From Arcobacter cloacae (lineage in GTDB: Bacteria; Campylobacterota; Campylobacteria; Campylobacterales; Arcobacteraceae), in NCBI RefSeq assembly GCF_013201935.1, contig NZ_CP053833.1, positions 62,001-126,000 on the forward strand: a stretch of DNA of 64,000 bases, in the 5' to 3' direction. The notes under the pieces were generated by a model. It did no database searches, was not told the DNA's origin, and saw only the letters and a list, made by a program, of their open reading frames with translations. This document shows positions 19,964-44,075 of this stretch, one piece after another. Position 1 is the stretch's first letter. Each line of letters starts with the position of its first letter. A program made the position numbers and the translations under genes.

Positions 19964-19972
19964 CAGTCACCT

Positions 19973-25816: not shown

Positions 25817-25911
25817 TTTTAATCCTTTTATTTGGTTTTAATTAGGTCATATCTAAAGACCTTATAGAGACTAGAGGAACACTTAAAGCCTAATCTCTGT
25901 AAGACCTTAAG

Positions 25912-27153: not shown

Positions 27154-27219
27154 AACGCATTAACCTCTAAAGGTCAGTTAAAATTAATACTAAAGTGATA
27201 AAATACATTTTGATTTAAG

Positions 27220-27239
27220 TGTGTATTGGATTGTGTATT
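27220..27239 (+). repeat. Right arm-type repeat of the element
   Basis: TGTGTATTGGATTGTGTATT, 18 of 20 bases identical to 19283-19302. Just beyond are three AAGTG-type repeats (AAGTGTCTGA, AAGTGTCTCT, AAGTGCC; 27241-27267) that could be further integrase-binding sites. Confidence 0.55.
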
Positions 27240-27284
27240 TAAGTGTCTGAAAGTGTCTCTAAGTGCCATAATTACGGTAATTCG

Positions 27285-27338
27285 CACAACCCACCGGGTC
27301 GAAACCGGTTATTCTATCCAGTTGAACTACAGACGCAC
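27285..27338. repeat. Right attachment repeat, truncated tRNA-Arg copy
   Basis: 54 bp identical to 19160-19213, containing the 5' two-thirds of the tRNA but no 3' T-stem/acceptor half, so it cannot make a tRNA. The bases to its right (27339 onward) are the original upstream flank of the tRNA gene. Confidence 0.93.
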
Positions 27339-27408: not shown

Positions 27409-28041
27409 ATGCCATATTTAGTATCTTCTATAATAGCTGTTGTAACAGCACTTATAATTTTATTGACAAGATATGAAGCTGATGATAGTGCGATAACAGC
27501 AGAGATAGAAAGAGCAAAATCTATGTTTATAACAGTTGATGGATTTACTAATACATATATTCAAAGTGGTGGGGATATGACAAAGATAAACTTTGAGCAG
27601 TTGTTTGATGATGGTATTTTACTTGGAAATATGACAAAAGATATACCAACATCAATTGCGAATGTAAAAGTAACAGCAGGTGAAATAGGTGATAAAAGTT
27701 TTACAGCTACTTTAGAATTTCCAAAAAGTAATATTAAATGGCAAATAGTTCCAATAGTTAATTATAAAATTAATGATTATAGAGGTATAGAAGTAGATTT
27801 AGGTAAAAGTGTAGGAGCTGGTTATCAGTTATTTATAGATTTTACTAAAGAGAGTACACTTATGAGCAAAAATGCTTTTAGTGAAAACTTTCTTGGAAGA
27901 GAAATTTGCGAAAAAACATTTTTTGGAAGTTTTATAAACAATGCAACTTCTATTTCAAGTTCATCAGGAACTTTAAATCAAATAGTTACAACTGGTGGGA
28001 CAAGTATTGATGGAAAAATTGCTTGTGTGGTTTTTAAATAA
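27409..28041 (+). CDS. Pilin-like protein 1 (no class III leader)
   Basis: A 210-aa protein beginning Met-Pro followed directly by a hydrophobic helix (about 4-20, LVSSIIAVVTALIILLT) and an amphipathic continuation (ITAEIERAKSMFITVDGFTNTYIQ), the shape of a mature type IV pilin N-terminus. The usual charged leader ending in Gly before Phe-Glu is absent. The C-terminal domain has two cysteines (about 164 and 206) that could make the pilin disulfide loop. Shine-Dalgarno AAAGGAAAA precedes the ATG. It is the first gene after the attachment repeat and starts the pilus-like locus. Assignment is by architecture only. Confidence 0.6.
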   Translation: MPYLVSSIIAVVTALIILLTRYEADDSAITAEIERAKSMFITVDGFTNTYIQSGGDMTKINFEQLFDDGILLGNMTKDIPTSIANVKVTAGEIGDKSFTATLEFPKSNIKWQIVPIVNYKINDYRGIEVDLGKSVGAGYQLFIDFTKESTLMSKNAFSENFLGREICEKTFFGSFINNATSISSSSGTLNQIVTTGGTSIDGKIACVVFK

Positions 28042-28156
28042 ATTATTTTCAATAAAAAATTATTATTTTATATTTTTAATACAAAAAAATAATTGATTAA
28101 TATCAAAAATGCATAAAAATTTAAGAATTCTTTAATAGTAAAGAAAATTATTTTGT

Positions 28157-28162
28157 GATAAA
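28157..28162 (+). promoter_or_regulatory. Extended -10 for pilin-like gene 2
   Basis: TGTGATAAAAT (28154-28164) contains an extended -10 at 28157-28162, 54 bases before the start codon. A Shine-Dalgarno AAAAGGGG follows at about 28203-28210. Confidence 0.4.
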
Positions 28163-28216
28163 ATAGAACATAAAATAATCTTGATAAGATTATAAATCAA
28201 AACAAAAGGGGTAAAT

Positions 28217-28876
28217 ATGCCACAGTTGATAGCGATGATTATCGTAGTTGTTGGAGCAATGATTTATATGTTCCAAACATTTGGGGGAACAGGTGATAAG
28301 ATTGAGGGTGTTGCTCAAAAGGGAAGTATTATTACAGAAATTAATAATATTAAAGATGGAGTTAAAATAGCTGCTAGATCTGGACATATTCAAATTCCAA
28401 CAGGTACCGATCCTGATGCAGCAAAAAATTTAAAAGGTTTAGCAACTCTTTCATATTTTGCAGAGCAAATAAACAGTCAATTAACAGATACTACTAATCA
28501 TTCTTCAAATGCTAATATTTATAATGCAATTTCTTTTGGTGGTACAGTTGTTACAACAGCTACTAATAATAGTGCAATGAAAATTTCTCTTGTTTCTAAT
28601 GTTTCAAAAGCAATTCCTGGAATTTATGTTGATATGTCTGCGGGAAGTCTTAAAGATAATGCTGCATTTTTGGAAGCTCAAATTGCTACAGATTTAGCAT
28701 CAATTGCTACAATTGATAGACATGCAACAGCAGCAACAGCGGGTGCATTACCTACAACAGGTACTGATTTAGAACAAAGAACACCAGCTACAACAGCTCC
28801 ATCAGATAATTCATTAACTGATGGTAAATTTATAATTTATTTTAAAGACTTTGGTTCTAACGAAGTTGTTAAATAA
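28217..28876 (+). CDS. Pilin-like protein 2, candidate major pilin
   Basis: A 219-aa protein starting MPQLIAMIIVVVGAMIYMFQTFGG, again Met-Pro plus a hydrophobic helix without a cleavable prepilin leader. It continues with an amphipathic stretch (SIITEINNIKDGVKIAARSG) and a Thr/Ala-rich globular domain lacking cysteines. It has the strongest Shine-Dalgarno of the locus (AAAAGGGG), its own promoter and its own terminator, the usual arrangement for a highly expressed major subunit. Role inferred from context and architecture. Confidence 0.6.
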   Translation: MPQLIAMIIVVVGAMIYMFQTFGGTGDKIEGVAQKGSIITEINNIKDGVKIAARSGHIQIPTGTDPDAAKNLKGLATLSYFAEQINSQLTDTTNHSSNANIYNAISFGGTVVTTATNNSAMKISLVSNVSKAIPGIYVDMSAGSLKDNAAFLEAQIATDLASIATIDRHATAATAGALPTTGTDLEQRTPATTAPSDNSLTDGKFIIYFKDFGSNEVVK

Positions 28877-28883
28877 CACCTTT

Positions 28884-28913
28884 AAACATCTAAGTAATTT
28901 AACTTAGATGTTT
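28884..28913 (+). terminator. Terminator after the candidate major pilin gene
   Basis: A perfect 12-bp stem AAACATCTAAGT / ACTTAGATGTTT with a 6-base loop, followed by ATTT. It separates the second pilin-like gene from the rest of the cluster. Confidence 0.85.
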
Positions 28914-28967
28914 ATTTCAAAACAAAACCTAAGTGCTAAACCTAAAGGTAGCATTTACTTTTTGTTT

Positions 28968-28973
28968 TATAAT
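28968..28973 (+). promoter_or_regulatory. -10 box of the long pilus-like operon
   Basis: TATAAT in TTTTATAATTG. A transcript from here would begin near 28980, so translation must start at ATG 28990 and not at the upstream in-frame GTG 28933. Confidence 0.55.
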
Positions 28974-28989
28974 TGATAAGGTTTTTCAA

Positions 28990-29703
28990 ATGTTAGGAAA
29001 TATATGGCTATCTTCTGCTCTTATTGTTACAGCTATATTTTCTGTAGGTGCTATGTATAAATCTTATAGTGATATTCAAGAAGCAAAACAAGTCCAAGAA
29101 CACTACGAAATAATCTCAGAAATCAAAACACTTCTAGCCAAGCAATACAATAAAAATCCACAAGATATAACAAGAGATGAAATCATAGCTCACCTACCAA
29201 AAGGTGGAAATTGGGAAAAAGTTTTACTTCTTGATAGACAAAAAGATAGTAATCTTTCAAATAAAGCTTTAGTAAACGAAGATGGAAAAATAGAGATAAG
29301 TGAAGATGAAAAGCTTAAACTTTTAGCTTTAAAAGCCAAATTAAAAGATGTTGTAAATGTAAGTTCGATGACTCTTGATTCTACAACAAAAAATTATACT
29401 TTTGAAGTTGGAAAATCTGAAAAAAATAGTATCAAGGATGATTTGGAAATTGAAAAAAGTATAATACAAGCAATTGATATACTATCAAAAGAGATACTGT
29501 ACACTTCAGGAGCAAATAAATCAAGTATATTGGAAGGTGTAATCAAAAACTTATTTGAAACGCATGAAAATTACTATTTATTTGATGGATTAACTAAAGA
29601 AAAAAAAGAAGAATTTTTTAAATCAAAAATAAAAGAAAAACTATATAAAAATGAGTCTGCTATAGAAACAAGATTATATAAAGAATTGGAAAGTTTGTTA
29701 TGA
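28990..29703 (+). CDS. Pilin-like protein 3
   Basis: A 237-aa protein beginning MLGNIWLSSALIVTAIFSVGAMYKSY, a short-leader hydrophobic helix continuing into QEHYEIISEIKTLLAKQYNKNPQDITRDEIIAHLP. That helical module is weakly matched by the next secreted proteins. It has no cysteines. ATG 28990 is chosen over GTG 28933 because a TATAAT lies between them and an AAGG Shine-Dalgarno precedes the ATG. Its stop overlaps the next start (ATGA). It is probably a minor pilin or pseudopilin. Confidence 0.55.
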   Translation: MLGNIWLSSALIVTAIFSVGAMYKSYSDIQEAKQVQEHYEIISEIKTLLAKQYNKNPQDITRDEIIAHLPKGGNWEKVLLLDRQKDSNLSNKALVNEDGKIEISEDEKLKLLALKAKLKDVVNVSSMTLDSTTKNYTFEVGKSEKNSIKDDLEIEKSIIQAIDILSKEILYTSGANKSSILEGVIKNLFETHENYYLFDGLTKEKKEEFFKSKIKEKLYKNESAIETRLYKELESLL

Positions 29704-30434
29704 AAAAGTTATTTTTTATTTTTATATTTTTATCAAATATTGCATTTTCTTTGGATTTAAATGATTTTGAAGAGAGAAAAAGCGTTTTAGAAGATGTAAA
29801 AAGTATCATTTTATACGAAGAATCAATTGCAATTGCCTATGAAAATTATATCTTATCAAACTATTCCATTCCTACTTTAGCACAGATAAAAGTTTTGATA
29901 GGTGACTTAACTACTCAGGTTTCAGGTATTACAACAACTTTAACATTAAATAACAGTGCAATCACAAAAATTTCTTACGCTTTAAATGATACACTAAAAG
30001 CAGATGATAGTATAAAAGCTTTATATGATAGTAATACTTTTAGAAAAAGGACTTATGTTAGAAATAATGAAGTCTATTTTATTTTAGAAGATGTTTTTGC
30101 AAAACATTTATATGATTTAATGAAATCATCTAATATTTCAGTAATAAATAATTGTCCAATAGTAGTTTTTACTACAGCTGTAAATTGTAAAGAGAATAAT
30201 CATATTTATATAGGATTAACAAAAAAATTAGAGGGTGGATTAGTGGTTCCAAATACTTATTTAATGGTATATCATATAGATAAATTTAAAACAGGACCTA
30301 TCATCATAACAGATGACACTTCAAAGCATATAACTGAAAGTGCTTTTGATTCTATACCAAAAGGTGCTTTACTTTATGATACAAATGGGGTTAAATATCT
30401 TAAAACATTAGATGGAATCGAGGTTTTAAAATGA
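29700..30434 (+). CDS. Secreted protein with pilin-like helical module, 244 aa
   Basis: A conventional signal peptide (about 1-17, FFIFIFLSNIAFS) is followed by a module VLEDVKSIILYEESIAIAYENYIL ... IPTLAQI that recurs at the N-termini of the next two proteins and of the protein at 39723. The rest is beta-rich with two cysteines (about 151 and 162). Coupled on both sides by ATGA overlaps. No known family recognised; a minor pilin-like or accessory secreted component is the best guess. Confidence 0.6.
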   Translation: MKKLFFIFIFLSNIAFSLDLNDFEERKSVLEDVKSIILYEESIAIAYENYILSNYSIPTLAQIKVLIGDLTTQVSGITTTLTLNNSAITKISYALNDTLKADDSIKALYDSNTFRKRTYVRNNEVYFILEDVFAKHLYDLMKSSNISVINNCPIVVFTTAVNCKENNHIYIGLTKKLEGGLVVPNTYLMVYHIDKFKTGPIIITDDTSKHITESAFDSIPKGALLYDTNGVKYLKTLDGIEVLK

Positions 30435-31186
30435 TAAAAATTTTTTTATTTATTGTTTTGTGGTTTAGTTTTTCTTTTTCAAATGAGAGTTTAAATGCCC
30501 AAAAACAAAATACTTTATATATTCATAATCTAATAGAAATAGAAGAAAAAATAGCCTCTAATTTTGAAAAATATCTTTTAACAGAATTTAAAATCCCTAC
30601 AATAAATGATTTGATAACTGATGAATATTTGGGAAGTAATTTTTCACTTTTAAATAGAATGGGAGATAATATAGATTTTCTTGATGCTTTAAATCTTAAA
30701 ATAAAGTATGCAATTAGAAAAAATGAATTTATAAATGCTCAAGATTATACAGTCTTACTTTATAACAGAGATTTATATAGGAATTATACAACCGTTAGTT
30801 CTGAAATTGCTGATAGTAAAATAGATTTATCAAAATCTTATGTTGAATTTAGATTAAAATCTGCAGAAGCAAATACAATTTATAATATTTTAAAAGCTGG
30901 AAATATTATCGAAAAAACTTGTACAGCTACTTTGGTTAGTAAGTATTGTAACAATGATAAAAACTCTATTAGATGGTATAATGCAAGTTCTAACTGGATT
31001 GAATATAATAAAAAAGATTTTAATCAAGGAAATATAACTATAAGTAGTGAAAGTATTATAAGTAGTGAGATTTTAAAATTAAGAGATTTAAAAGTAGGAA
31101 GTTATATTTTCATAAAAGATAAAACAAAAAATGTAAAGTTAGCTGATGATGTATCAGGAAATTTACAAATTTTAAAGGTTAATTGA
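30431..31186 (+). CDS. Secreted protein with the same helical module, 251 aa
   Basis: A signal peptide (about 1-17) precedes the shared module (IEIEEKIASNFEKYLLTEFKIPTINDLITDEYLGSNFSLLN, about 35-75). The middle is charged, a Cys pair occurs near 167-175 (CTATLVSKYC), and the C-terminus is beta-rich. It is a paralogue of the preceding and following proteins by its first 100 residues. It is coupled to both neighbours by 4-base and 1-base overlaps. Function unknown. Confidence 0.6.
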   Translation: MIKIFLFIVLWFSFSFSNESLNAQKQNTLYIHNLIEIEEKIASNFEKYLLTEFKIPTINDLITDEYLGSNFSLLNRMGDNIDFLDALNLKIKYAIRKNEFINAQDYTVLLYNRDLYRNYTTVSSEIADSKIDLSKSYVEFRLKSAEANTIYNILKAGNIIEKTCTATLVSKYCNNDKNSIRWYNASSNWIEYNKKDFNQGNITISSESIISSEILKLRDLKVGSYIFIKDKTKNVKLADDVSGNLQILKVN

Positions 31187-34161
31187 TGAAAATTTTAACA
31201 TTGATACTATTTTTTATAAGTTTTTCTTTTTCTTCAAGTCAAAATGTTTCATTGATGAATGATATAAAAAGTGTTATTCAAAAAGAAGAATATATATCGC
31301 TTGCAATAAATAAATATATTTTACAAAATGCAAAAATTCCTAAAAAAGATGATAATACGCTGGATTGGGATGAACTTATGACTAGTGATTATTTAGGAAC
31401 AAATTTTAATAGATACAATCCTATGACAAAACAGAATATATCAGTTGTTTTTGATTCAAATAATAGTGCTTTTATAAAGGGAGTTTTTGAAGCTGAAAAT
31501 CAACATAAAGCTGAATATAATTATTTGTATAATTTTTATATAAATAAGATTTTTAGAGTAAATACAATTCCGCCAAAAAATAATACAAAAGCAGAACTTG
31601 TAAAAGGTTCTTTAGTTTTATATAACTCAATTCAAAATGAAATTGTAAAAGTTATAAATAGAAATACAAATAAAATATTTTTACCTACTCAAGCTTGTGA
31701 AATTGGAAACTATTACTATGAATTAAAAAATGAAAAATTGATATATAAATATTGTAAAACAGCCACATCTTCTATAGAAGTTTATCAAGAATCACCAGTG
31801 TATTTAGATAATTTAGATGATTTAAAATATATAAAAATTGAAATAGGTGAAAAAGCTTATGTAAAAGATGGTATTTCTTGGTATGAGTATTATTATGAGG
31901 GAAATGGCTCTTGGATTCCTTTGGGAACAGGTAGAACTACAGGACAAGTAAATGATGAAATAAGTATAGAAGATAGGATTTTATCATATATCCCTGATGC
32001 AAAAGATTTGGTTTTAAGACGTGATGGTGGATGTATGCTTGCAAATGGAGATATCTTTTGCTGGGGAAATAATAGTTATAAAAAAGCTGGTATTGAGAAC
32101 TATGGACAACTTGATAAAACTATAAAACCTGACTATGTAAATACACCTGTAATGTTGAAAGTTCAAATAGAAGATACAGAACAAAATAATAAAAAATGGT
32201 ACAACAATCCATATAGAGTAAAATTTGAAAAAATGGCTATGAATAGTACAAATGTTTGTGGAATTTCTCCTATATTTAACTATTTTGATAATGGTCAAAA
32301 GAAGTTTGGTGGAGATTTATATTGTAATGGTCAAATAACTCAATTATATTTTGAAAATGTATCAACAGCTGTTAGTGAAACTTCTATTCTTGGAAAAAAT
32401 AAGTTTTTTGGATGGGGTAAAAGTGATAAAACAGATGATGCTCCTAAATTAATAAAAATATCAGAAGATGGTGGACCTGTAGAAAAGGATTCTTCAAAAC
32501 AAGAATTGATGATTTTAAGAGATGAGATTTATTTAACTGATATTGTGATGGTTGAAGATACGATAGCCGTATTATCTGATAATGGTAAAATATATACTAT
32601 AGGAAGAAATTACAATGGAGCTTTAGGAATAGGGAATAGTGATAAATTTATTGTTCAATCAACACCTCAAGAGGTTAAAAGTAATGGAGTTTCTTTTAAA
32701 AAGATATTTGCACTAAGAGACATCGCAACTTTTGGAGCAATCGATAGCAATAACTATTTTTATATTTGGGGTGAAAGACCAAATGGAACAGTTTATTATG
32801 AGCCTACAATTGTAAGTCATTCTTTAAAGTTTAATCCAGATGGTATTTTTACAAATAGTAAAGATTTTCTTCTAAAAGGTGTAGATAATAAATTTTACAG
32901 AACAAAAAATAGTATAGATTTAGTATCTGTTCCAGAGATACCAAGTACAGCAATAAGTGCTTCTATTTATGATAGTGGTTCTACTCAGTTGTATGTTTAT
33001 GCAACTGAAAATATGGTTTTAGAAGGAAGTAGTAAATATCTAAGTTGCAAAGAAAAAAATGATTCAGCTTGCAATAGCACTGATACCACTATATTTAAAA
33101 CAGCTTTAGATGAATTAAATGCTATTACGAATAGATTTAATGGAAAAGATTATGCAAATTTTGCAAATGTATCTATTTACCAGCTGGATACTGTAAAAAC
33201 TGAACAATATGATGACTTTGAAAATGGAGTTAGTACATGGCAGTTAAAAACGTATAGTGATACTCAATTTAAAAATCTTACAAAAACAGAAACACCTTCT
33301 ATTTTAACTGCAACTGAAAGCTCTGCAGATACTGCAAATTCAAGAGTTACGGAAAGAGTGGACCCAACTAAGATAATAGCTGGACAAGTTCGTAGTTCTA
33401 AATATTATGGAATTCAATTAGGGTATCAAGCTTTAGAAAAAACTTTTAATTTTGGTAGCCAGTATGCAAATAATGAAGTTGAGTTAGAATTTGATTTTTA
33501 CGAAATTGATACTTGGGATATGGAAAGATTTCAAGTTTTATTAAATGATCAATTAATATCTGAAGATGCATTTATTCATGATTGTCATGAACAATTCACA
33601 GAAACTAATGATACTGGAATTTATACATTGAGTTTAGGAAAACATTATAAGGACGATAAAAGAGTATGTAATGATCAAAATTCAAGTTTATACAATTTGG
33701 CATATTCAAGATTTGATGATGAAAAATATATTTATAAGTTAAAAGGAAAATTAGATAGTAATGGAAATTTAAAAGTTGTATTTAGAGTAAGAAATGCTGT
33801 TTCTGGAGAATATGGTTGGACAACATGGTCTTATGGACAAACAATAGATGATGAATCTTGGGCAATTGATAATGTACGTGTAAAAGTAAAAGAGACAAGT
33901 AAAACTTTTGTTTGTGCTATGACTGGAATTGGAAGTTCTTCTCAGATGTACTGTTGGGGGAATGTGGGACGAAGTATACCTATTTTAAGTACATCTTTAT
34001 ATGATGTTGGTAAAATATCTACTATAAATAAGTTATTTATCTCTACTGAGAGTGATAAGACAAGCCAAATGGCTTTTGATAACTTTAATGATTCAGGAAA
34101 TCTATTTTTAAAATATCCCACTTATATTGGTGGGTTTGATTATCCATTTTATTTTAAATAA
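31186..34161 (+). CDS. Very large secreted RCC1-repeat protein A, putative tip adhesin or substrate
   Basis: The 991-aa protein has a signal peptide, the shared module (DIKSVIQKEEYISLAINKYIL, about 20-70), then RCC1-like blades with the WG core: GDIFCWGNNSYKKAGI, FFGWGKSDK, GKIYTIGRNYNGALGIGN and YFYIWGERPN. A jelly-roll-like insert (about 670-900, YDDFENGVSTW ... SWAIDNVRVKV) is followed by a last blade MYCWGNVG. The C-terminus KYPTYIGGFDYPFYFK is nearly repeated in the protein at 39723. RCC1 propellers mediate binding, so surface display or tip function is inferred. Start ATG 31186 (overlapping TGA) is used, not TTG 31183. Confidence 0.7.
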   Translation: MKILTLILFFISFSFSSSQNVSLMNDIKSVIQKEEYISLAINKYILQNAKIPKKDDNTLDWDELMTSDYLGTNFNRYNPMTKQNISVVFDSNNSAFIKGVFEAENQHKAEYNYLYNFYINKIFRVNTIPPKNNTKAELVKGSLVLYNSIQNEIVKVINRNTNKIFLPTQACEIGNYYYELKNEKLIYKYCKTATSSIEVYQESPVYLDNLDDLKYIKIEIGEKAYVKDGISWYEYYYEGNGSWIPLGTGRTTGQVNDEISIEDRILSYIPDAKDLVLRRDGGCMLANGDIFCWGNNSYKKAGIENYGQLDKTIKPDYVNTPVMLKVQIEDTEQNNKKWYNNPYRVKFEKMAMNSTNVCGISPIFNYFDNGQKKFGGDLYCNGQITQLYFENVSTAVSETSILGKNKFFGWGKSDKTDDAPKLIKISEDGGPVEKDSSKQELMILRDEIYLTDIVMVEDTIAVLSDNGKIYTIGRNYNGALGIGNSDKFIVQSTPQEVKSNGVSFKKIFALRDIATFGAIDSNNYFYIWGERPNGTVYYEPTIVSHSLKFNPDGIFTNSKDFLLKGVDNKFYRTKNSIDLVSVPEIPSTAISASIYDSGSTQLYVYATENMVLEGSSKYLSCKEKNDSACNSTDTTIFKTALDELNAITNRFNGKDYANFANVSIYQLDTVKTEQYDDFENGVSTWQLKTYSDTQFKNLTKTETPSILTATESSADTANSRVTERVDPTKIIAGQVRSSKYYGIQLGYQALEKTFNFGSQYANNEVELEFDFYEIDTWDMERFQVLLNDQLISEDAFIHDCHEQFTETNDTGIYTLSLGKHYKDDKRVCNDQNSSLYNLAYSRFDDEKYIYKLKGKLDSNGNLKVVFRVRNAVSGEYGWTTWSYGQTIDDESWAIDNVRVKVKETSKTFVCAMTGIGSSSQMYCWGNVGRSIPILSTSLYDVGKISTINKLFISTESDKTSQMAFDNFNDSGNLFLKYPTYIGGFDYPFYFK

Positions 34162-34169
34162 GGAATTGT

Positions 34170-35831
34170 ATGTTGAAAGATTATAAAAGTATATTGTTTT
34201 TAGGTGGACTTTTTCTATTACTTAGTGGTTGTAGTTCAAAGAGTTATCATGATGAAATGATAAAAAAAGCTAAAGATTCCTTAAATAAAGAAGATTATCA
34301 AGAGTTGAAAGAGTCATATTCAAACTCACTAGTTAATGAGAAATCTAAATCAAAAGAGTTTATTTCTATTTTAGAAGATAAATCTTTAAGTGATATTTTA
34401 AAAGAGATGGAAATAATAGATGGAAATTTTTATTATCTAAAAAGTAGTGATATTTTAGTACCAAAAAGTAGAATTAAAATACATAATATAGCTGAATTAA
34501 ATCAATATTTAAATGCCGTTTTAGATAAAGAGTTGTTTATCAAAAAAAATGGTTCAATCTATCTTGTAAAACTTTTAACTACAAGTGAAACAAAAAAACA
34601 ATCAATAGAGCATATACCATTTCAATTAGAAGGTCAAATTTCTGTAGAAGAGCTTATTAAACTAATAACAGCTCAATCGGGATATGAAGTAAATATCGGA
34701 AGTTTCATAGAAAATAGGAATGACTTTCAAAATAGTATTGTAAGTATTAGTTCAAAAAATCTAAAAGATGCTTTAAATTCATTAGCTCATACAAAAGATG
34801 TTTTTGTTGACGTTGATTATGATAAAGAAGTTATTAATATCACAAGATATAAAGATTTAGTAATAGAGTTAAATATCCCTTTACTTGATATAAAATCTTC
34901 AAGTCAAACTTCAAATCAAGAAACAACAGGGGAAAGTAAAGTAGAAAATAATTCTCAGATAGTTTTATATGATGAATTAGACAAGATGCTAAAAAATATC
35001 ATCTCAACAGATAAAATCTCAACTTATCACATAGATAAAGCAAGTGGATTGATATTTTTAAAGTCTACAAAATCTATTGAAAATGCAGTTAGAACAATTG
35101 CTAAAGCTTATGAATCAACTTTTTCAAAAGAGGCTGTTATAGAGTTTGAAAGAATAGAACTTATTTTAAATAAAAATAGAGCCTACGGAATAGGAAGTAT
35201 TAGTGATAATAGACAACAAAATGCAGGTACAGGAGTAGTTCGAGAAATAGGTACAGGTGGAGCATTGAATTTTACAAGTGATAATGCTACAAGGCTTTTA
35301 CAAGTTGTAGCAACAGCAAATAATGAAATAGGAAGAGTTTTAAATTATAGTAAAAATATGATTATATTAAAAAACAATATCCCAACAGTTCAATCAATCA
35401 CTGATAATACAGACTATGTTGAAAAAATAGAAACAACAATCTCAGCAGAAACTGGTCTTAGAACTTCAGATGTTACAGTTAATACTCTAAAAGAGGGTAC
35501 ATCAATAACAGCAATGGCAAAAGTTTCAAGGGATAAAATATTTTTAAATATAACTCCTACAATAAAAAAACTTATTGAATTTGGAGAGGTTAGTATAGAT
35601 GGAACAGTAATTAAATTACCTCAATATAAAGACCAAAGTTATAATATTTCAAAAGAGGTAGCTTTGGGTGAAACTTCAATAGTAGGTTCTATTATAGTTC
35701 ATGATGATGCAAAAAATTATCAAGGGGTTTTACCACTTGAAGGTTTTGCAATTGGTGGAAGTGACTCTAAATCTTATGTAAGAAGAGAAATAGTTTATGT
35801 TGTAACTCTTAGAAATATCAAAGGCTTTTAA
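34170..35831 (+). CDS. Lipoprotein secretin (PilN/BfpB/MshL-like)
   Basis: A 553-aa outer-membrane ring protein. It has a lipoprotein signal (LLLSGC, Cys21), N-domains (about 100-270, including SVEELIKLITAQSGYEVNIG) and a C-terminal secretin core (about 320-553). That core carries VIEFERIELILNKNRAYGIG, the gate-region IILKNNIPTVQ, and the closing strands SISKEVALGETSIVGSI-like through REIVYVVTLRNI. Type IVb pilus secretins such as R64 PilN and BfpB share the lipid anchor and size. It would form the exit channel for the pilus-like structure or secreted proteins. Confidence 0.85.
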   Translation: MLKDYKSILFLGGLFLLLSGCSSKSYHDEMIKKAKDSLNKEDYQELKESYSNSLVNEKSKSKEFISILEDKSLSDILKEMEIIDGNFYYLKSSDILVPKSRIKIHNIAELNQYLNAVLDKELFIKKNGSIYLVKLLTTSETKKQSIEHIPFQLEGQISVEELIKLITAQSGYEVNIGSFIENRNDFQNSIVSISSKNLKDALNSLAHTKDVFVDVDYDKEVINITRYKDLVIELNIPLLDIKSSSQTSNQETTGESKVENNSQIVLYDELDKMLKNIISTDKISTYHIDKASGLIFLKSTKSIENAVRTIAKAYESTFSKEAVIEFERIELILNKNRAYGIGSISDNRQQNAGTGVVREIGTGGALNFTSDNATRLLQVVATANNEIGRVLNYSKNMIILKNNIPTVQSITDNTDYVEKIETTISAETGLRTSDVTVNTLKEGTSITAMAKVSRDKIFLNITPTIKKLIEFGEVSIDGTVIKLPQYKDQSYNISKEVALGETSIVGSIIVHDDAKNYQGVLPLEGFAIGGSDSKSYVRREIVYVVTLRNIKGF

Positions 35832-35833
35832 TA

Positions 35834-36850
35834 ATGAGTATGTTTTCTGATCCATATGAGCAGTTTTTACTTGATTATCTTGTAACAAAACTCGAAAATG
35901 GTTCAAATACAAGAAGAGCTTTGTTACTTTATAGTGAACAAATCACAAGAGAAACAAATTTCAAAAAAAGATTAATGGCCGCAATAAAAGATATGGAAAT
36001 AGGGAAGCATAAGCTTGAAGCAATTTTACACAAACATAAATTTTTAAATAGTTTTCAGTTTAGTTTAGTTGTAAATAGTACAAATACAATTGATGGTTTA
36101 AAACTTGTTTTATCTTTTAAAAAAGCAAACTCAAATCTACTTATGAAAATGATAAATCCTATTTTTGTTCCTATGTCTATTATTGTAGGAACATTTTATG
36201 GCTTGATTTTATATTTAGATATGCTTCAAAAAGATTTAGTTCAACTAAGAAAATTAAATCCCGATGTTGAACAATTTTTAGGAATACCAAAATATTTTAC
36301 TTATGATGTTGCATATATTGGATTAGGAATTTCTATTTTTGTTACTTTATTTATCTTGTTTGGATATATCTATACTGAAAAATATAAACCTGCATGGCTT
36401 TATAAAGTTTTTAAAACTCAAGCTTATTCTGATGGTAGATTTATGTTTAGAATCTTAAATGGAATGTTAAGTGCTGGTATTTCATTTCATAAAACTTCTT
36501 TGATTTTATCAAAGGATTATTTTAAAGTTGGATTTAGACCTTTTTTCAAAGATTTAGCAGATATGATAAATAAAAATAAAAAACTTTTTATTATGTTTGA
36601 AAGATATAATTTCCCACCTATTATAACAGCTGATATAAAACTTTCAGAACTTAGTAAAACAAGTTTTTCAGAAGTAACAAAAGCTTTATATCAAACTTGT
36701 GACACAATGTATGAAAAAAATATAAATTATATGGTTTTACAGTGGAGATTTATGTTTTGGTTAATAGCTATGTTAATTACAGTTGTTATTGGTTCAGATA
36801 TTATAAATCTGGTAATTAGTACATTTACTTTTAAAACTTTATATCAATAG
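35834..36850 (+). CDS. GspF/PilC-type inner-membrane platform protein
   Basis: A 338-aa protein with two cytoplasmic helical domains (about 1-105 and 190-290) and three membrane segments: INPIFVPMSIIVGTFYGLILYL (about 110-130), VAYIGLGISIFVTLFILFGYIY (about 156-178) and WRFMFWLIAMLITVVIGSDII (about 305-325). This is the layout of GspF/PilC/TcpE platform proteins, which couple the ATPase to subunit assembly. It starts 3 bases after the secretin gene. Confidence 0.8.
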   Translation: MSMFSDPYEQFLLDYLVTKLENGSNTRRALLLYSEQITRETNFKKRLMAAIKDMEIGKHKLEAILHKHKFLNSFQFSLVVNSTNTIDGLKLVLSFKKANSNLLMKMINPIFVPMSIIVGTFYGLILYLDMLQKDLVQLRKLNPDVEQFLGIPKYFTYDVAYIGLGISIFVTLFILFGYIYTEKYKPAWLYKVFKTQAYSDGRFMFRILNGMLSAGISFHKTSLILSKDYFKVGFRPFFKDLADMINKNKKLFIMFERYNFPPIITADIKLSELSKTSFSEVTKALYQTCDTMYEKNINYMVLQWRFMFWLIAMLITVVIGSDIINLVISTFTFKTLYQ

Positions 36851-36859
36851 AAGAAAATC

Positions 36860-38501
36860 ATGATAAAAAAAATAGTTTCAACTTTAAAAAATGTACCAAA
36901 AATGAGCTTTTTAAATAAAGATAAAAAATTGTATAAAAAAGAACAATCTGAAAAAATAGATTTTAAAAAGATTATAGAAAAACAAAAGCATACTTTTTTT
37001 GAGTTTATCGGAAAAACTGATGATACAGATACTCATTTATCTCATGTAATTGAAGAGATGATTAAAGATAAATTTCAACTAAAAGGTGGATATGGAGATT
37101 TAATTGCAAATGAAGCAAAATATGCAGAATTTGTAAGAAGTCTAGGATATGAGTATTATGCAACTTATAGTGATTTATCAAAATATTATCAAGATACTTC
37201 TTTTCAATTAGATGAAAAAAAACTTGAGTTTTGTACAACAATGTATATTATCACTTTAGAAGATAAAAAGAATAAAAATAAAGTTTTAGGTATTAGAGAT
37301 GTTGTAAATCTTGATTTTGAAATTTTAAGTAAGTTCTATTTTACAAAAATAGTAGTTTTAGGTGAGGGTGTTTTATCTTCTGTATTTGGAGAAGATAGGG
37401 AGATTATCTTTAGTTCAAATAGTGATACTGAAAATGATGAAGAGATAAATAAATATTTTGACAAAATGATGGGACAAGCTATTTTACTAGGGGCTTCTGA
37501 TATACATATTCAAAAAACAAGTAGATACGCATCTTTATGGTTTAGAATTGATGGTATCAAAGTTGATATGGGAACAATGCCAATTACTATTGCTAAAACT
37601 TTAAAAAGAAGACTTGTAACAATGGCCGATCAAGAGGATTCTGATTATGAGTCAATCAATGGTGTTATAAATTATGAATATGGTAAAAAAAATATCAAGT
37701 TCAGACTTGGGCTTATAAACTCAAAATTAAACTTTTCATTGGTTATGAGGATGATTGGTGGGCGTGGAGTTGTTTCGCATAATCTATCAGGACTTAATTA
37801 TCCAGAAGAGACAATTAGAATTTTATCTAATTTAACAAAATATGCAAATGGTATGATATTAATAACAGGACAAGTTGGATCGGGTAAAACACACTTAATG
37901 TATGCACTTTTACAACAATTAGCAAAACAACAACAATATGTTATTACTATTGAAGACCCAGTTGAGTATGTTGATGAAGCATTTTTTCAAATAGATTTAT
38001 CAGAGTTTGCAAGTGCAAGTGAAGAGTTTAAATATGGTTATCCAGAAGCAGTTGTTGATATTTTAAGACAAGATTCAAATATTATATTAATTGGGGAAAC
38101 AAGGGAACCACAAACAGCATCACAACCATACCAACTCAGCTCCTGCAACTGTATCAAGGATGACAAGTTCTTTGGGAATTAATGAAGGGGATATTATTGA
38201 TAACTTAAGAGGAATAGTATCTCAAAGACTAGTTAGAAAGTTATGTACATATTGTAAAGAACCAGATGGAGAAGCTGGATTTAAAAAAGTTGGTTGTGAT
38301 GAGTGTAATCATACTGGATTTAAAGATAGGGTTCCTATTGCTGAGGTTGTAAGATTCAAACTAGGGCATGGAGGAGATTTTGAAAATCCAGCTGAATATA
38401 TGACAGTTGAAAAAGCAGCAATGGCTCAATATCATGCAGGATTTATCACTAAAGAAGATGCGACAGCTATTATTAGAGGGGAAGAAGTATGGTACGACTA
38501 G
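36860..38501 (+). pseudogene. GspE/PilB-type assembly ATPase, broken by an internal deletion/frameshift
   Basis: The first frame (36860-38182) holds the N2 domain (GASDIHIQKTSRYASLWFRIDG), Walker A GQVGSGKTHLM, the Asp box TIEDPVEYVD and Walker B ILRQDSNIILIGETREPQTA. At 38120-38126 the frame is lost. The correct continuation HTNSAPATVSRMTSSLG is in another frame (from CAT 38127) and runs to 38501 with the tetracysteine zinc motif (CTYC ... CDEC). Family members have about 17 residues between TA and HTNSA, including the GHLVLTTLH signature; these are absent. The protein as read would end in 20 foreign residues. Confidence 0.85.
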
Positions 38502-39238
38502 TAATAACTGATTTTGCCACTAAAGAAGATAGTGAGTTTTTTTATATAAGAGATGAATTTGATGTATCTCAAAATATGTTTACCTATCACTCTTTCAAAA
38601 AATATAGTGTTTATTTATCGAAATATACAGATGATGATATCTATTCTTTGAATCTTTTATCAAGAAAGTATTTAGATAAAAATCAATTTTTGATTCATAT
38701 TGCAGATGGGGAGTATGTGATATTATTTAATCATAAAACGGTATATTCAGCGAAAATAAATCAGAATTTTATCACAGATGACATGATTAAATCTATTTTG
38801 ATTACAAAGCATATAGCTATGCTCTCAAGTGGTGGAAGTATTGATAGTATTTATTATGTAATTAATTCAAAATTTAAACATGCTATAGAAAATATTTTAA
38901 AGCAAAATACAAAAAATGAAAAACAAGAAGTTGTTGCTAAATCTTTAGGTGAAATTGAAGATTTAGTAAAACCCTTGAAGTCTTTGGATACTTCAAAATC
39001 TCATTTTACAAAGTTGTTTTATATTACTTCCTTGACAACACTTAGTTTATGGTTTGTTTTTTTTGGATTAGAAAAAATTACGAATAAAGTATTTTATACA
39101 GAACCTCTTGAAAACTTAACGAAAGAAATAGAAATAGAAAAACAATTAGCAAAGCGACAGCAAATAATTTTAAATACAAATGAACAAAAATATAAAGAAT
39201 TAACAGATTGTATTTCAATAAATGGAGATTCTAAATGA
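38489..39238 (+). CDS. GspL/BfpC-like bitopic assembly protein
   Basis: A 249-aa protein with a cytoplasmic domain (about 1-175) that resembles a reduced PilM/GspL actin-like fold, one membrane segment (about 178-198, LFYITSLTTLSLWFVFFGLEKI) and a short periplasmic coiled coil (LTKEIEIEKQLAKRQQ). Position after the ATPase and before a GspM-like gene matches the L-M order of type II secretion and the PilM/N-PilO order of pili. It overlaps the end of the ATPase frame by 13 bases, with Shine-Dalgarno GGGGAAG. Identity by topology and order only. Confidence 0.6.
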   Translation: MVRLVITDFATKEDSEFFYIRDEFDVSQNMFTYHSFKKYSVYLSKYTDDDIYSLNLLSRKYLDKNQFLIHIADGEYVILFNHKTVYSAKINQNFITDDMIKSILITKHIAMLSSGGSIDSIYYVINSKFKHAIENILKQNTKNEKQEVVAKSLGEIEDLVKPLKSLDTSKSHFTKLFYITSLTTLSLWFVFFGLEKITNKVFYTEPLENLTKEIEIEKQLAKRQQIILNTNEQKYKELTDCISINGDSK

Positions 39239-39726
39239 TAAGTGTTCATTCAAAATTAGTATCTAGAATAACCAAAATGCTTTTGATAGGTTTAACTACA
39301 TATACTGTATTATTTATTTTGTTTAAAGCTATTATTTATTTTCAATCGGTGAAACAAAAAGAGAATTTAGTAAGAGATATACAAATTCAAAAAGAACAAA
39401 CAGAAATTATAAAAAATAAGGTTAATGAGGTTAAGAAAAAAATAGAAAATCTTGAAAAAATATATGTACAAAAAGAAGAATTAGAAAACAAAATAAAAGA
39501 TATATTTCAAAGAATGTCTTTATTGGATTATCAATTAAATTATGTTGATGCAAGAAAGATGTGTGTTGATAGATATATTATTGTTGCTAGAGCAGATTAT
39601 CAAAGTGAAAAAGGTTTAAAAGCAATTGAGGGTATTTTATCTTATTTGGGTGAAATAAAAAAAAGTGAAAATGATGAAAATCTATATTTTGTAAATTATA
39701 TAGCAAAACCAAGGGATATAAAATGA
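39235..39726 (+). CDS. GspM/PilO-like assembly protein
   Basis: A 163-aa bitopic protein with a short cytoplasmic N-terminus, one membrane segment (about 14-33, MLLIGLTTYTVLFILFKAIIYF), a long coiled coil (about 38-95) and a small alpha/beta domain (about 100-160) like the ferredoxin fold of PilO/GspM. It overlaps both neighbours by 4 bases. It would pair with the preceding protein to form the inner-membrane alignment subcomplex. Confidence 0.65.
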   Translation: MISVHSKLVSRITKMLLIGLTTYTVLFILFKAIIYFQSVKQKENLVRDIQIQKEQTEIIKNKVNEVKKKIENLEKIYVQKEELENKIKDIFQRMSLLDYQLNYVDARKMCVDRYIIVARADYQSEKGLKAIEGILSYLGEIKKSENDENLYFVNYIAKPRDIK

Positions 39727-41951
39727 AAAAGTTTTTAGTTTTTGTTATTTTACTTGTTTGTACAACTTTGTTTGCAAATAATGTTGTAGATTCGATTACT
39801 TTAACAAAAATAAAAAAACTTGTTCAAAAAGAAGAAGAAATAGCTGCTGCATATAAGAAATATATTTTAGAAAAAGGTGTAAATCCTACAACTTTAAATG
39901 ATTTAAAAACAGCAAATTATTTACCAAAAGGATTTGATATTATAAATCCTTTTGGCAAGCAAATTACTATTATTCTTGATAATAACTCAACAACTACAAA
40001 TAAAAAAGATGATATTCATAAAATTAGAGGTTTTGAATCAACTGATCCTAAATTAAAATCAAACCTATATGATTTTTATTATTCAAATAAATATAGAACT
40101 CATACAAAAGCACCTTTAAGTATAAACAATAGTAATATTGAGATAATTTTATCATCAAAAGAAAGATTTATGTATGAAAATAGTTCAAAAATCACAACAA
40201 CTGCTCCAAATAATTCTACAAAAACTCCAAAAGATAGCTATTATTTAGATAAAAATGGTGTTTTACATTGGTATGATAGTTCTGGAAATTATAAATACTC
40301 TTTTGATAAAGAGTTAGTTCTTGATGAAAGTGTAACTTTATTAAATAGTGATGGAAGTGTAAATAGCAATTATAAAAATTTGGTAAAAGATATAGAATTT
40401 GCAGGAATGACTATATTATATAAAAAAGATGCTGTTGCTCAAGAACATGTAAATATTGGCTCAGGAAGTGTAGTAAAAGTAAATCAACAAACAAGAGATA
40501 TAGGAAAAACTGTTATTCAGTTTAGTAGAAGAGCAGGTGGAATGATTGTAAATGGAGATATTTATACTTGGGGTAATATTGCAAACAGAATAGTAGGAAT
40601 AAATCAAAATAAGTATACAAAAGATAACGGAAGTTTAGGTTCAAATTACCCTGTTATTACAGGACTAGTAAGGGCTAGAGTAAAAACTTATAACTCAACC
40701 ATTGATAATCAAAATTATTTTTCATCTTCATTAAGACCAAAATTTGTGGATTTTTTTAGTACAGTTTTTCATAGTACTTGTGGAATCTCGACAAAAGGGG
40801 AGTTATATTGTGGTGGACTGGCAAGTGCATATCAAAAAGGATTTTTATATTCAAATGTAGACCCTTCAAATCCAAGTGTCGAAATGTTATATAAGAGTAA
40901 AGATTTTGATGGAACAACAGATAAAAAAGCTACTAAAATTTTTGCAAATGATGGATTTTGGTTAATATTTGGTAATACAGATATTGATAGTAATGGAAAT
41001 TATAAAAATGGTAGAATTTATAGATGGGGAGCTACAAGTAGAGGTTTTGGAGGAAACAATAGTTTAAATTATTCATCGACTAATATATCAGAGTTAAATA
41101 TTGAAGATAATAAAATAAAGGTATTATTTAAGGATTTAACATATCTTCTTACTATTGGACATAGAAAAATAGGAGCATTGTCTAATCAAGGGGATATTTA
41201 TATTTGGGGAACAGATTATACTTCATCATGTAGTGTTAAATGGGAAAATATTAATTATAACTTATGTATCCCGATTAAAATCACTATTTCTAATTCAACT
41301 ATGAATTCTCTTATAAAGTTTGAATCAATTCAAGGTGGATTAGATGCTTTTGTAGCAAAAAGTGAAAATGGAAAGTATTATAAATTATCTCATCCGATAA
41401 ATAAACAAATTCAAGTTATATCTGTAGATGAAGTAATTAAAACTTATAGTGAATATGTAGCAGAAAATGATGCTGAAATATTATCTGTAGATTTTTCAAG
41501 AAAATTGACTGATACAAACAAATCGAATTCAAGTACTGGAATAGTTTGGGTAAATAGTAAAAATGAATTGAAAGGCGATTATTTTACAACTACAAATAAA
41601 GATGATAAAATGTTCAAAGATGCAATTAAGCAAATAAAATGGAAAAAAATCAAAGTCATTCAGGATGATAATGGAATGTGTGGAATAGATGTAAATAATC
41701 AAATGTATTGTTGGGGAATGATGTCTTATTATGGTTCTGATATGAGGGATACTTTTATGTTACCAGTTTTTAATACAAATTTGTATGATACTAATAAAGA
41801 TTTTTTGATTGTTGAAGGAGGGAATTCAAATCTTACAAATATGACTTCAGATGAATGGTCTACAACTAATAGTGATGGAAAAACTGGTGCATTTTTCATG
41901 AAATATCCAACATATATTGGTGGATTTAACTATGAATTTATATTTAAATAG
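39723..41951 (+). CDS. Large secreted RCC1-repeat protein B
   Basis: The 742-aa protein has a signal peptide (about 1-18), the shared helical module (KIKKLVQKEEEIAAAYKKYIL ... NPTTLNDLKTANYLPKGFDI) and RCC1-like blades (GDIYTWGNIANRIVGIN, GELYCGG, GRIYRWGATSRGFGG, GDIYIWGTD, QMYCWGMMSYYG). It ends in FFMKYPTYIGGFNYEFIFK, nearly the same tail as protein A at 31186. It lacks the jelly-roll-like insert of A. Encoded within the assembly genes, so probably a dedicated substrate or tip protein. Confidence 0.7.
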   Translation: MKKFLVFVILLVCTTLFANNVVDSITLTKIKKLVQKEEEIAAAYKKYILEKGVNPTTLNDLKTANYLPKGFDIINPFGKQITIILDNNSTTTNKKDDIHKIRGFESTDPKLKSNLYDFYYSNKYRTHTKAPLSINNSNIEIILSSKERFMYENSSKITTTAPNNSTKTPKDSYYLDKNGVLHWYDSSGNYKYSFDKELVLDESVTLLNSDGSVNSNYKNLVKDIEFAGMTILYKKDAVAQEHVNIGSGSVVKVNQQTRDIGKTVIQFSRRAGGMIVNGDIYTWGNIANRIVGINQNKYTKDNGSLGSNYPVITGLVRARVKTYNSTIDNQNYFSSSLRPKFVDFFSTVFHSTCGISTKGELYCGGLASAYQKGFLYSNVDPSNPSVEMLYKSKDFDGTTDKKATKIFANDGFWLIFGNTDIDSNGNYKNGRIYRWGATSRGFGGNNSLNYSSTNISELNIEDNKIKVLFKDLTYLLTIGHRKIGALSNQGDIYIWGTDYTSSCSVKWENINYNLCIPIKITISNSTMNSLIKFESIQGGLDAFVAKSENGKYYKLSHPINKQIQVISVDEVIKTYSEYVAENDAEILSVDFSRKLTDTNKSNSSTGIVWVNSKNELKGDYFTTTNKDDKMFKDAIKQIKWKKIKVIQDDNGMCGIDVNNQMYCWGMMSYYGSDMRDTFMLPVFNTNLYDTNKDFLIVEGGNSNLTNMTSDEWSTTNSDGKTGAFFMKYPTYIGGFNYEFIFK

Positions 41952-41970
41952 AATTTAAAAAAGGGAAGAG

Positions 41971-42993
41971 ATGAAAAAAATAAGTTTGATTTTATTGGGG
42001 ATTTTTACAACATTTAATCTTTATGCACAAGAGCAAATAGCTCAAGACATGAAGAATATGGATAAATTAGATGTTTTAGATAGACAATCTAAAGATTTTT
42101 TCAATGCAATAACAGGGCTTGAAAAAGATTATTTAGAAGAACAAGTAAATGCGATAAAAAACAAAAGAGTAGAAAATCCATCAAATCCAAATCAACCACA
42201 AATGATAGTTACTCAAGAGCCAACTTTGTCACAAGAAGATTATGAAAAAAATGTATTTACACATCAAAATGAAATGGCAAGACTTACAACGGATTTTACA
42301 AGAACAAAAAAATTAAAAGATTTAAAAATCAAAAGTATGTATTCATTTAATGGAAAAGATTATGTAGTTTTAGAATTAATAGATGAAACATCAAATACAA
42401 GTGGAGTAAAAACTGAATTAAGTGCAAATATAGAGGGAAGATACATAGAGGGTGATAATATTTTAGGACATAAAATAATAGATATTAATACTAGAACAAA
42501 AAGTATAGAACTTTATAAAAAACTTGATGAAGAGTACGGATATACAATATATTTAAGCAATTATGGAATTTCAGTTAGTGATTTAAAAAAGATAGAAAAA
42601 ATAAATGACAAAATTGAAGCTAAAAAAGAAGAGATAAAAAAAGAGGAGCCAAAAGTAGTTCCTCCTTCTCAAAATAAAGTAAAAGATGTTTTTAATCAAG
42701 TAAATGAAAAAGAGATAAAAAAAGAAGAGATAAAAACTGATATTTCAAATTGTTTATATACAGTTAGAAAACAAAATCTAAATGTAAGAAATGAACCTGG
42801 TTTAGAGGGAAGAATTTTAAGAGTATTAAAAATAAATGACCAATTTACAATCAATAAAAAAGGGAACGATTGGGTTCAGATTGATACTATTTATAAAAAA
42901 ATCTCTGGTGATGTAATGATTGTTTCAAAAGAGAATAATTGGGTTCAAATAGTTGATGGAAATGTGACTTCTCCAAATAATGAGTGTAAATAG
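41971..42993 (+). CDS. PilP/GspC-like periplasmic protein with SH3-like C-terminus
   Basis: A 340-aa protein with a signal peptide (about 1-19), a charged helical region, and a central beta domain (about 105-195, LKIKSMYSFNGKDYVVLELID ... GRYIEGDNILGHKIIDINTRT) of the PilP/GspC homology-region type that contacts the secretin. A Lys/Glu/Pro-rich linker and a bacterial SH3 domain (about 258-340, TVRKQNLNVRNEPGLEGRILRVLK) follow. SH3b domains bind peptidoglycan or protein. It has its own Shine-Dalgarno AAGGGAAGAG. Confidence 0.65.
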   Translation: MKKISLILLGIFTTFNLYAQEQIAQDMKNMDKLDVLDRQSKDFFNAITGLEKDYLEEQVNAIKNKRVENPSNPNQPQMIVTQEPTLSQEDYEKNVFTHQNEMARLTTDFTRTKKLKDLKIKSMYSFNGKDYVVLELIDETSNTSGVKTELSANIEGRYIEGDNILGHKIIDINTRTKSIELYKKLDEEYGYTIYLSNYGISVSDLKKIEKINDKIEAKKEEIKKEEPKVVPPSQNKVKDVFNQVNEKEIKKEEIKTDISNCLYTVRKQNLNVRNEPGLEGRILRVLKINDQFTINKKGNDWVQIDTIYKKISGDVMIVSKENNWVQIVDGNVTSPNNECK

Positions 42994-43001
42994 GATAAAA
43001 A

Positions 43002-44075
43002 TTGGAAAATCAAAAAGATTACAAATCATCTATTTCTAGTGATATAAATAAAATTATTAATGAAACAGAGATATTAATAAATAAATATAATAAATTTTTT
43101 AATATTGAAGAGATTTTTTCTAGTGAAAATGGTGGTAAAACTAGATTAAATAGACAAATATTTAATGAAAATCACGAAGAAATACAAGCTTCTATTTTAG
43201 AAATTGCTTTATGTTTAGATGAAATAAAAGGTTATATATCTGAAGAGATAAAGATGATATTATCAAAATATAATCTCTTTGATAAAATAGAAATCACTGA
43301 TTTGATTTTTGATGATAGAAATTTTTTGGAACTTTTATTTTTAGATTTAGAAACACATGGAATAAAAGGTGAAATAAGAGTAAGATGTTTAAATGATGTA
43401 AATGAATTATTAAGTTTAAAAAATAAAATTTTTAATTTAAAATATTTTGTAGATATGTTTAATACATCAATTTTTGATAAATATCTAAATAGATTAGGAG
43501 TTGAAGATTTAATCAATAGTACGATTATATTTGAAACAATTGATTCTTATGGCTTACAATTTGAAGAGTTATTGAAATTTTCTAAAGAGATAAAAAATCT
43601 AGAACCACAAAGAGAAAAACTTACTAATTTAAATAGTCTAAATTCTCTTTTGGAATTACATAAGCGAAGGGCAGATAATTATCATTATGCAAGTATAAGA
43701 TATAAAATTTATGTTGAATATAATTGTGATATTTTAGCTAAACCTATGTATGTAAATAAAGCATATTTGGAAAATATAGTCTCTTCTTTGATGGAACAAT
43801 CATATATGGATTTAGTAAAAAAAGAGTTAAAAAAAGGAAAAATTCAAAAACAAGTAGATGTAAATGTATCAGTAGTTAAAAATACTTTTCAAATAACTAT
43901 CAAAAATAATGGTTTTGAATCAAGAAATATACAAAGTCTATATAATGCAGATATTGATAATAAATATATATTAGAAGCAAAAAATTTTGCTGCAGCTATA
44001 AATGCTAAGTTTGATATTCAAACTTTAGATAATGAAGGTATGTTATATACTTTAAGTGTAAAATTAAAAGCTTAA
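43002..44075 (+). CDS. Cytoplasmic protein with degenerate HATPase-like domain
   Basis: A 357-aa soluble protein, start TTG 43002 five bases after AGGAT. The first 240 residues are helical and charged. The C-terminal part (about 245-357) resembles a GHKL/histidine-kinase ATPase fold: an N-box-like YLENIVSSLMEQSYMDLV, a strand FQITIKNNGF where kinases have DxGxG, and YILEAKNFAAAINAKFDIQTLDNEGMLYTLSVKL at the end. The ATP-binding Asp/Gly residues are missing, so it is probably non-catalytic. It is the last gene of the pilus-like operon and may be a regulator. Confidence 0.55.
   Translation: MENQKDYKSSISSDINKIINETEILINKYNKFFNIEEIFSSENGGKTRLNRQIFNENHEEIQASILEIALCLDEIKGYISEEIKMILSKYNLFDKIEITDLIFDDRNFLELLFLDLETHGIKGEIRVRCLNDVNELLSLKNKIFNLKYFVDMFNTSIFDKYLNRLGVEDLINSTIIFETIDSYGLQFEELLKFSKEIKNLEPQREKLTNLNSLNSLLELHKRRADNYHYASIRYKIYVEYNCDILAKPMYVNKAYLENIVSSLMEQSYMDLVKKELKKGKIQKQVDVNVSVVKNTFQITIKNNGFESRNIQSLYNADIDNKYILEAKNFAAAINAKFDIQTLDNEGMLYTLSVKLKA

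Follow-up and report, generated by a model that had tools for sequence, protein, structure and literature searches.

A predicted type IV filament system of Arcobacteraceae with leaderless pilin-like proteins and exported RCC1-type propellers

We analysed a window of 64,000 nucleotides from the 2.81-Mb genome of Arcobacter cloacae (contig NZ_CP053833.1, positions 62,001 to 126,000; G000:C1:62001-126000), in which a block of 14 genes (g01-g14; Table 1), all on the plus strand, spans positions 27409-44075. Judged from its sequence, the block is a type IV filament system, encoding an ATPase, a platform protein and a secretin, and by the same family assignments it reaches the curated cut-off of no named class. 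We lean, if only slightly, towards reading it as an adhesive, non-retracting pilus, with leaderless pilins that bypass prepilin processing and a tip of Sec-exported propeller proteins. The original prediction for this stretch had recognised a machine with RCC1-repeat secreted proteins, and missed that its pilin-like genes lack the prepilin leader. In the openly licensed literature we found no paper describing the block system, and searches aimed at leaderless or PilD-independent pilins had no hits.

The central observation concerns the starts of the pilin-like proteins g01 and g02. Across the 23 loci in which it is covered, the g02 start is M-P throughout (MPQLIAM in 22 and MPLLIAA in one), and that of g01 is M-P in 17, M-A in five and M-G in one, with a TTG start codon in two; a membrane helix begins directly at the N-terminus of both proteins in all 23. 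Purine-rich stretches resembling ribosome-binding sites were recognised by eye upstream of both starts. The in-frame open stretch upstream is down to one codon for g02 in L030 and for g01 in G096, G057 and L053, so that an in-frame stop makes a leader impossible there with any start codon; elsewhere the frame is open for longer, g01 in L025 having the maximum of 26 codons, and in such loci the leaderless case is built on the start codon and on conservation. Neither protein shows the leader ending in Gly or Ala, followed by a hydrophobic helix, that characterises a class III signal peptide. A scan of forward-strand open reading frames (ORFs) for Gly or Ala at the cleavage point, then xxxxE, with a hydrophobic stretch, which requires Glu5 and would miss odd prepilins, gave no prepilin signal in the 25 loci of the system (two cut by contig ends), and none either in L099, around the genome's other ATPase; the same scan was positive in all four cousin systems compared below (L021/L100, L022, L066 and L067). 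Moreover, g01 and g02 are homologous from residue 1 over most of their length (hhalign 93.7%, E 1.9e-7; with alternative alignments, 65.9%, E 5.7e-5). The described major type IV pilins all have a leader, to our knowledge. By definition, a prepilin has a leader with Gly or Ala as its last residue and must be processed, in the accessible part of one account (PMC10191384). A search of the block for a prepilin peptidase gene found none, as originally predicted, and located one elsewhere in the window genome; all 12 genomes checked, with or without the block, have such a gene. The peptidase-less locus likely means leaderless pilins.

The core of the machine was recognised by family searches at levels short of any class assignment. 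The secretin g07 matches the NCBIfam MshL model TIGR02519 at 8e-10, with 38.2 bits vs a cut-off of 250.2, so that the MSHA equivalog level is not reached; a Pfam search of g07 did not find the Secretin family, and comparison of the secretin with PDB profiles returned low-scoring unrelated proteins only. The platform protein g08 matches Pfam T2SSF at E 0.0085, under the cut-off, which the homologous protein of the cousin L022 exceeds. The ATPase g09 matches Pfam T2SSE at 2.7e-36 and 1.1e-17 on two pieces; for the ATPase of L024, the best solved relatives among PDB profiles are GspE chains (7.7e-43), and its 193.1 bits lie below both the PilB (675.65 bits) and the GspE (630.25 bits) equivalog cut-offs. 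These results support the secretin, GspF and GspE/PilB parts named in the original prediction, as well as its view that the block is not a named system, in so far as no curated class cut-off is reached. Its GspL-, GspM- and PilP-like labels for g10, g11 and g13 agree with position, size and topology and gain no supporting family match: g11 yields only low-scoring unrelated matches, and g13 an SH3_3 match (9.9e-8; the L031 form is shorter, at 173 amino acids, aa). Family searches gave nothing over cut-off for g14, and Pfam, NCBIfam and PHROGs gave nothing over cut-off for g01-g03; by hhalign, g03 has no detectable relation to g01/g02 or to g04-g06/g12. Outside the block, the search of the window genome for T2SSE gave a single full gene, of 453 aa, and a weak match. 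As this sole full extra gene has the length of the CtsE homologue of A. butzleri DQ40A1, listed as 453 aa in the available portion of PMC8308473, no retraction ATPase is evident, and the fibre is accordingly likely to be non-retracting.

Four proteins of the block, g04, g05, g06 and g12, have signal peptides recognisable by eye, in line with the four secreted proteins originally reported, and share an N-domain (pairwise hhalign E 9e-30 to 1.4e-8). By its Pfam RCC1 match (9.4e-8, over cut-off), g06 is assigned as an RCC1-repeat protein. For g12, Pfam gives only WD40_RLD (9.4e-9, under cut-off), and its structural model points to an RCC1-like propeller: Foldseek matches the model to an RCC1-like domain (E 8.3e-11), and VIA-align places the propeller model with UVR8/RCC1 at Z 15 to 16.6 (UVR8 16.6) and with the bacterial PLL/PHL lectins at Z of about 15. 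The two RCC1-like propeller proteins first proposed from the letters are thus recovered. Given the lectin-like match of the model, a glycan ligand for g12 is a reasonable guess. PilY1 is not among the 50 entries listed by VIA-align for g12, which excludes nothing, and the PilY1 family is not among the matches listed for the block proteins. The conserved C-terminal KYPTYIGGFNYEFIFK was considered as a sorting signal and rejected: the propeller alignments of g12 reach residue 742, and in the model it is more likely the closing strand of the propeller. Pfam RCC1 matches are found in 16 of 25 system genomes vs 2 of 79 others (Fisher p 9.6e-11, uncorrected for kinship); in one of the 16 (G328) the match falls in an unrelated 1630-aa protein. 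A 2535-aa ORF with RCC1 repeats (L102, 4291-11898) was also seen in G324, a genome with no g08 match.

Using the platform protein g08 as the query, and tblastn for gene presence and order, we obtained matches in 27 of 104 Arcobacteraceae genomes, in 10 of 298 of the order sample, in 22 of 397 of the phylum sample and at nine loci among named genome contigs. Two of the 27 family matches (G043 and G323) are cousin systems and the other 25 belong to the present system. All 14 genes are detected by tblastn in the same order in 21 of these 25 loci, two of them with a broken core gene; a recurrent conserved block is what the original prediction had named as support. Contig ends truncate the blocks of L029 and L032, in both of which g12 is present. 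The divergent locus L065 (G330), at 34% for the secretin and 46% for the ATPase, has a different gene order and leaderless pilins; G330 (L065 and L101) has two overlapping RCC1 genes whose N-domains are alike by eye. L031 (G328) is compact: g01, g02, g07-g11 and g13 were found, whereas tblastn did not find g03-g06, g12 or g14, and a gene beside the compact block (14664-15785, minus strand) encodes a second g01-type protein, which is again leaderless and carries a repetitive extension at its C-terminus. The L031 record is titled Helicobacter pylori PMSS1 MAG; its genome groups with the Arcobacteraceae, and the title looks wrong. RCC1-type proteins are built into 24 of the 25 loci, and to this extent the claim that they are integral parts holds; the compact homologous locus is a single instance of what that prediction had named as refuting it.

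Within the genus group of the window, 15 of 31 genomes have the system. The ubiA-purT interval measures 5.3 and 2.4 kb in G312 and G234, where the block is absent, and in G298 (L093, 8784-9642) only g01 and a piece of g14 are left near purT, likely as remnants of a lost block; seven genomes were viewed for this comparison, in four of which purT lies outside the 10-kb stretch. The patchy presence likely arose by loss of the block, with gain a possibility. The leaderless system was not found beyond the Arcobacteraceae in the phylum sample, six weak matches (E 2.8e-6 to 5.7e-4) being left aside; viral contigs gave no match to the system, and plasmids a single one, to a cousin system.

The pilus that we envisage would work as follows. 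The g09 ATPase and the g08 platform would polymerise g02 subunits together with g01-type minor pilins, and g10, g11 and g13 would link this machine to the g07 secretin, the proposed exit of the fibre from the cell. Both g01 and g02 would insert as N-in anchors and join the fibre uncleaved by a prepilin peptidase, having lost the initiator Met only; Met removal is proposed in view of the Pro, Ala or Gly at position 2. From the cytoplasm, g04, g05, g06 and g12 would reach the periplasm via Sec and form a tip complex with the minor pilins, in which the RCC1 propellers g06 and g12 may replace PilY1 as the heads that bind ligands. On the narrower proposal, a filament without prepilin processing in which Met removal replaces peptidase cleavage, Glu5 is dispensed with, major and minor pilins start at the usual mature N-terminus and two RCC1 proteins act as tip adhesins, our judgement is evenly divided.

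Several lines of evidence bear on g02 as the polymerising subunit. In its model (mean predicted local distance difference test score, pLDDT, 64.6; predicted TM-score, pTM, 0.65) the N-terminal helices are long and the head contains strands. The top three VIA-align entries for this model are TcpA (Z 7.2, 146 residues, 6.4 Å), CofA (7.1, 130 residues, 4.2 Å) and PilA1 (6.6, 126 residues, 3.8 Å), the next being an unrelated chain at 3.8, although by the program's own warning Z values below 8 may reflect only a common arrangement; the TcpA alignment begins at g02 residue 1 and TcpA residue 2. Across loci g02 is 211-261 aa long, with a variable middle. The gap 3' of g02 holds a hairpin with z <= -2.3 in 20 of 22 loci (median -5.3), vs 3 of 22 g01-g02 gaps (median -0.95) and none of 22 stretches within g02; such a hairpin would suit an excess of message for a major subunit.

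Alongside the caution on low Z values, a number of points weigh against the leaderless pilus as a whole. The g02 model is weak by its mean pLDDT. Foldseek with this model found no pilin (best match E 1.4), hhalign of g02 with two canonical cousin pilins gave no link, and the MAFFT register between leaderless and leader-bearing pilins is only suggestive, that profile link having failed; g02 likewise had no match among PDB profiles. Position 5 is not Glu in g01 or g02. All 12 genomes checked keep a prepilin peptidase, and prepilin-type genes over the cut-off are present in 20 of 21 genomes, block-less ones included, so that the machine may use a distant canonical pilin. The N-domain of g04, g05, g06 and g12 has no relation to pilins detectable by hhalign, one locus (L031) is without RCC1 genes, 2 of 25 loci carry a broken core gene (g09 in the window, g08 in G057), and the fibre is predicted from genes alone. 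In G301, a type II secretion system (T2SS)-like cluster, with a platform protein and two prepilins recognised by eye, is divergently arranged with an RCC1 lipoprotein gene (L104, 536-5940), and RCC1 proteins could by this example be a secreted partner or cargo.

This last arrangement fits an alternative that we regard as improbable, namely type II-like secretion, in which g01 and g02 form a short pseudopilus that pushes g04, g05, g06 and g12 into the medium by way of the secretin. That the operon includes four exported proteins sharing an N-domain agrees with it, as do the GspE chains as best solved relatives of the ATPase and a genome in which a retraction ATPase is not evident. However, the sole secretin family match is MshL and not GspD, the length of g02, its variable middle and its own 3' hairpin are as in a major pilin, and the compact L031 retains the machine without g03-g06 and g12, the supposed cargo among them. 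We think it equally improbable that g01 and g02 are membrane helpers and that the polymerising pilin is a canonical prepilin encoded elsewhere and matured by the genome's peptidase. The window genome does have prepilin-type genes and one peptidase outside the block, and the failure of Foldseek to find a pilin for g02 is in keeping with this explanation; yet its over-cut-off frames of 145 and 146 aa have counterparts of similar size in the block-less G008 (142), G312 (144) and G313 (147), the 25 loci lack a prepilin signal while all four cousin loci have their own, and VIA-align ranks three pilins at the top for g02. That the block is merely a decaying, functionless remnant appears very improbable indeed: the broken ATPase gene of the window genome, the interrupted platform gene of G057, the leftovers of g01 and g14 in G298 and the patchy presence (25 of 104) would be expected of one, but the ATPase gene is open in 24 of 25 loci, and invariant residues and gene order are retained across divergent genomes.

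The block itself is compactly arranged. From g03 to g14 neighbouring genes are spaced by -13 to +19 bases, with wider gaps of 175 bases between g01 and g02 and of 113 bases between g02 and g03. The same-strand block was correctly delimited in the original prediction, but the fifteenth of its genes proved to be part of g09 in a shifted frame: a 44-base deletion, seen in comparison with L054, L053 and L024, shifts the frame, and the ORFs 36860-38182 and 38091-38501 are one gene. In the remaining 24 loci this gene is open. Unless the deletion is an assembly error, the machine of the window strain is probably dead. The platform gene of G057 is split by the gene of a 400-aa protein that looks transposase-like by eye (L020, 9166-10368). 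Just upstream of the block, at a tRNA-Arg, an exact 54-base repeat (19160-19213 and 27285-27338) bounds an 8.1-kb element (19160-27338) that encodes a tyrosine integrase and includes an IS21-type gene pair. Membership of the block in this mobile element was considered and rejected, because the element stops just before the block and ubiA stands directly upstream of g01 in some relatives (L014, L015, L025, L055 and L056).

Table 1. Genes and other features of the block, in window coordinates (assignments by eye, position, topology or model as indicated)
Feature	Coordinates	Strand	Description
g01	27409..28041	+	Pilin-like, 210 aa; N-terminus MPYLVSSIIAVV; without leader; two conserved C-terminal cysteines; probable minor/tip pilin
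g02	28217..28876	+	219 aa; N-terminus MPQLIAMIIVVVGAMIYMF; without leader; model ranks TcpA/CofA first (VIA-align, Z below 8); probable major pilin
hairpin	28883..28914	+	13-pair stem, 6-base loop; directly 3' of g02
g03	28990..29703	+	237 aa; N-terminal membrane helix; ATG start chosen, GTG at 28933 possible
g04	29700..30434	+	244 aa; N-terminal signal peptide (by eye); N-domain common to g05, g06, g12
g05	30431..31186	+	251 aa; signal peptide (by eye); N-domain common to g04, g06, g12
g06	31183..34161	+	RCC1 protein a, 992 aa; signal peptide (by eye); common N-domain; RCC1 repeats
g07	34170..35831	+	Secretin, MshL-like; lipoprotein-type signal (by eye)
g08	35834..36850	+	GspF/PilC-like platform protein, 338 aa
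g09	36860..38501	+	GspE/PilB-like ATPase gene; broken here by 44-base deletion at about 38126
g10	38489..39238	+	249 aa; GspL-like by position and topology
g11	39235..39726	+	163 aa; GspM-like by position and topology
g12	39723..41951	+	RCC1 protein b, 742 aa; signal peptide (by eye); common N-domain; propeller about residues 262-742 (model)
g13	41971..42993	+	340 aa; PilP-like by position; bacterial SH3 domain
g14	43002..44075	+	357 aa; histidine-kinase-like (by eye)

In the available text of PMC10191384, the prepilin peptidase is counted among five ancestral parts of these machines, and type IV pilins are defined by the leader and its cleavage. A leaderless machine, if real, would mean that neither the leader nor the peptidase is essential to type IV filaments; it would raise the question of how pilins insert into and leave the membrane without Glu5, and it would imply that signal-based pilin finders overlook such systems. 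The block further draws attention to surface proteins of the Arcobacteraceae that are uncharacterised and may bind glycans.

Among known systems, the MSHA pilus resembles the block in the MshL match of g07 and in a gene cluster with an ATPase, a platform protein and L-, M- and P-like parts, but differs in that the MshL score of the block is far under the cut-off, its pilins are leaderless and it has RCC1 proteins; the MSHA gene order, too, presumably differs. The type IVb pili (TCP, CofA/longus, Bfp and R64) share the compact operon, and the g02 model appears closest to TcpA and CofA; on the other hand, the block lacks a peptidase gene and its pilins lack a leader, whereas type IVb pilins are defined by much longer leaders, as the accessible part of PMC10191384 has it. 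The cousin systems L100 (with L021 as its copy under a G handle), L022, L066 and L067 have the same kinds of secretin, platform and ATPase at mostly 23-33% identity, one 57-residue piece of the ATPase being 44% identical, but each has its own prepilin with a leader, and tblastn found no match to g06 or g12 in L021, L022, L066 or L067. L100 is the plasmid NZ_CP040940.1 of the deep-sea vent bacterium Caminibacter pacificus, on which the clustered type IV pilus-like system is mostly annotated as hypothetical. PilY1 of the type IVa pili, a propeller protein in a pilus operon with a proposed tip role, offers a further likeness; the propellers of the block differ in their RCC1 repeats and in having another N-domain. 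Another parallel comes from the T4P-2 system of Saccharibacteria, whose PilX2 is a minor pilin with a seven-bladed RCC1 propeller, without a predicted PilD signal, and proposed as the adhesin; in the available part of that account, lack of a PilD signal is stated for PilX1 and PilX2 only (PMC12206443). Both systems combine an RCC1 propeller in a predicted or described type IV pilus with a component free of a predicted PilD signal, and the original claim that RCC1 proteins are without precedent in type IV pili falls to this example, to the extent that the account is available (PMC12206443): given PilX2, their presence is not new in kind. In PilX2, however, the propeller is the C-terminal domain of a minor pilin, as described in the same portion, whereas the block has separate exported propellers and a leaderless probable major pilin, and it is a whole system with such a pilin that is the surprising part.

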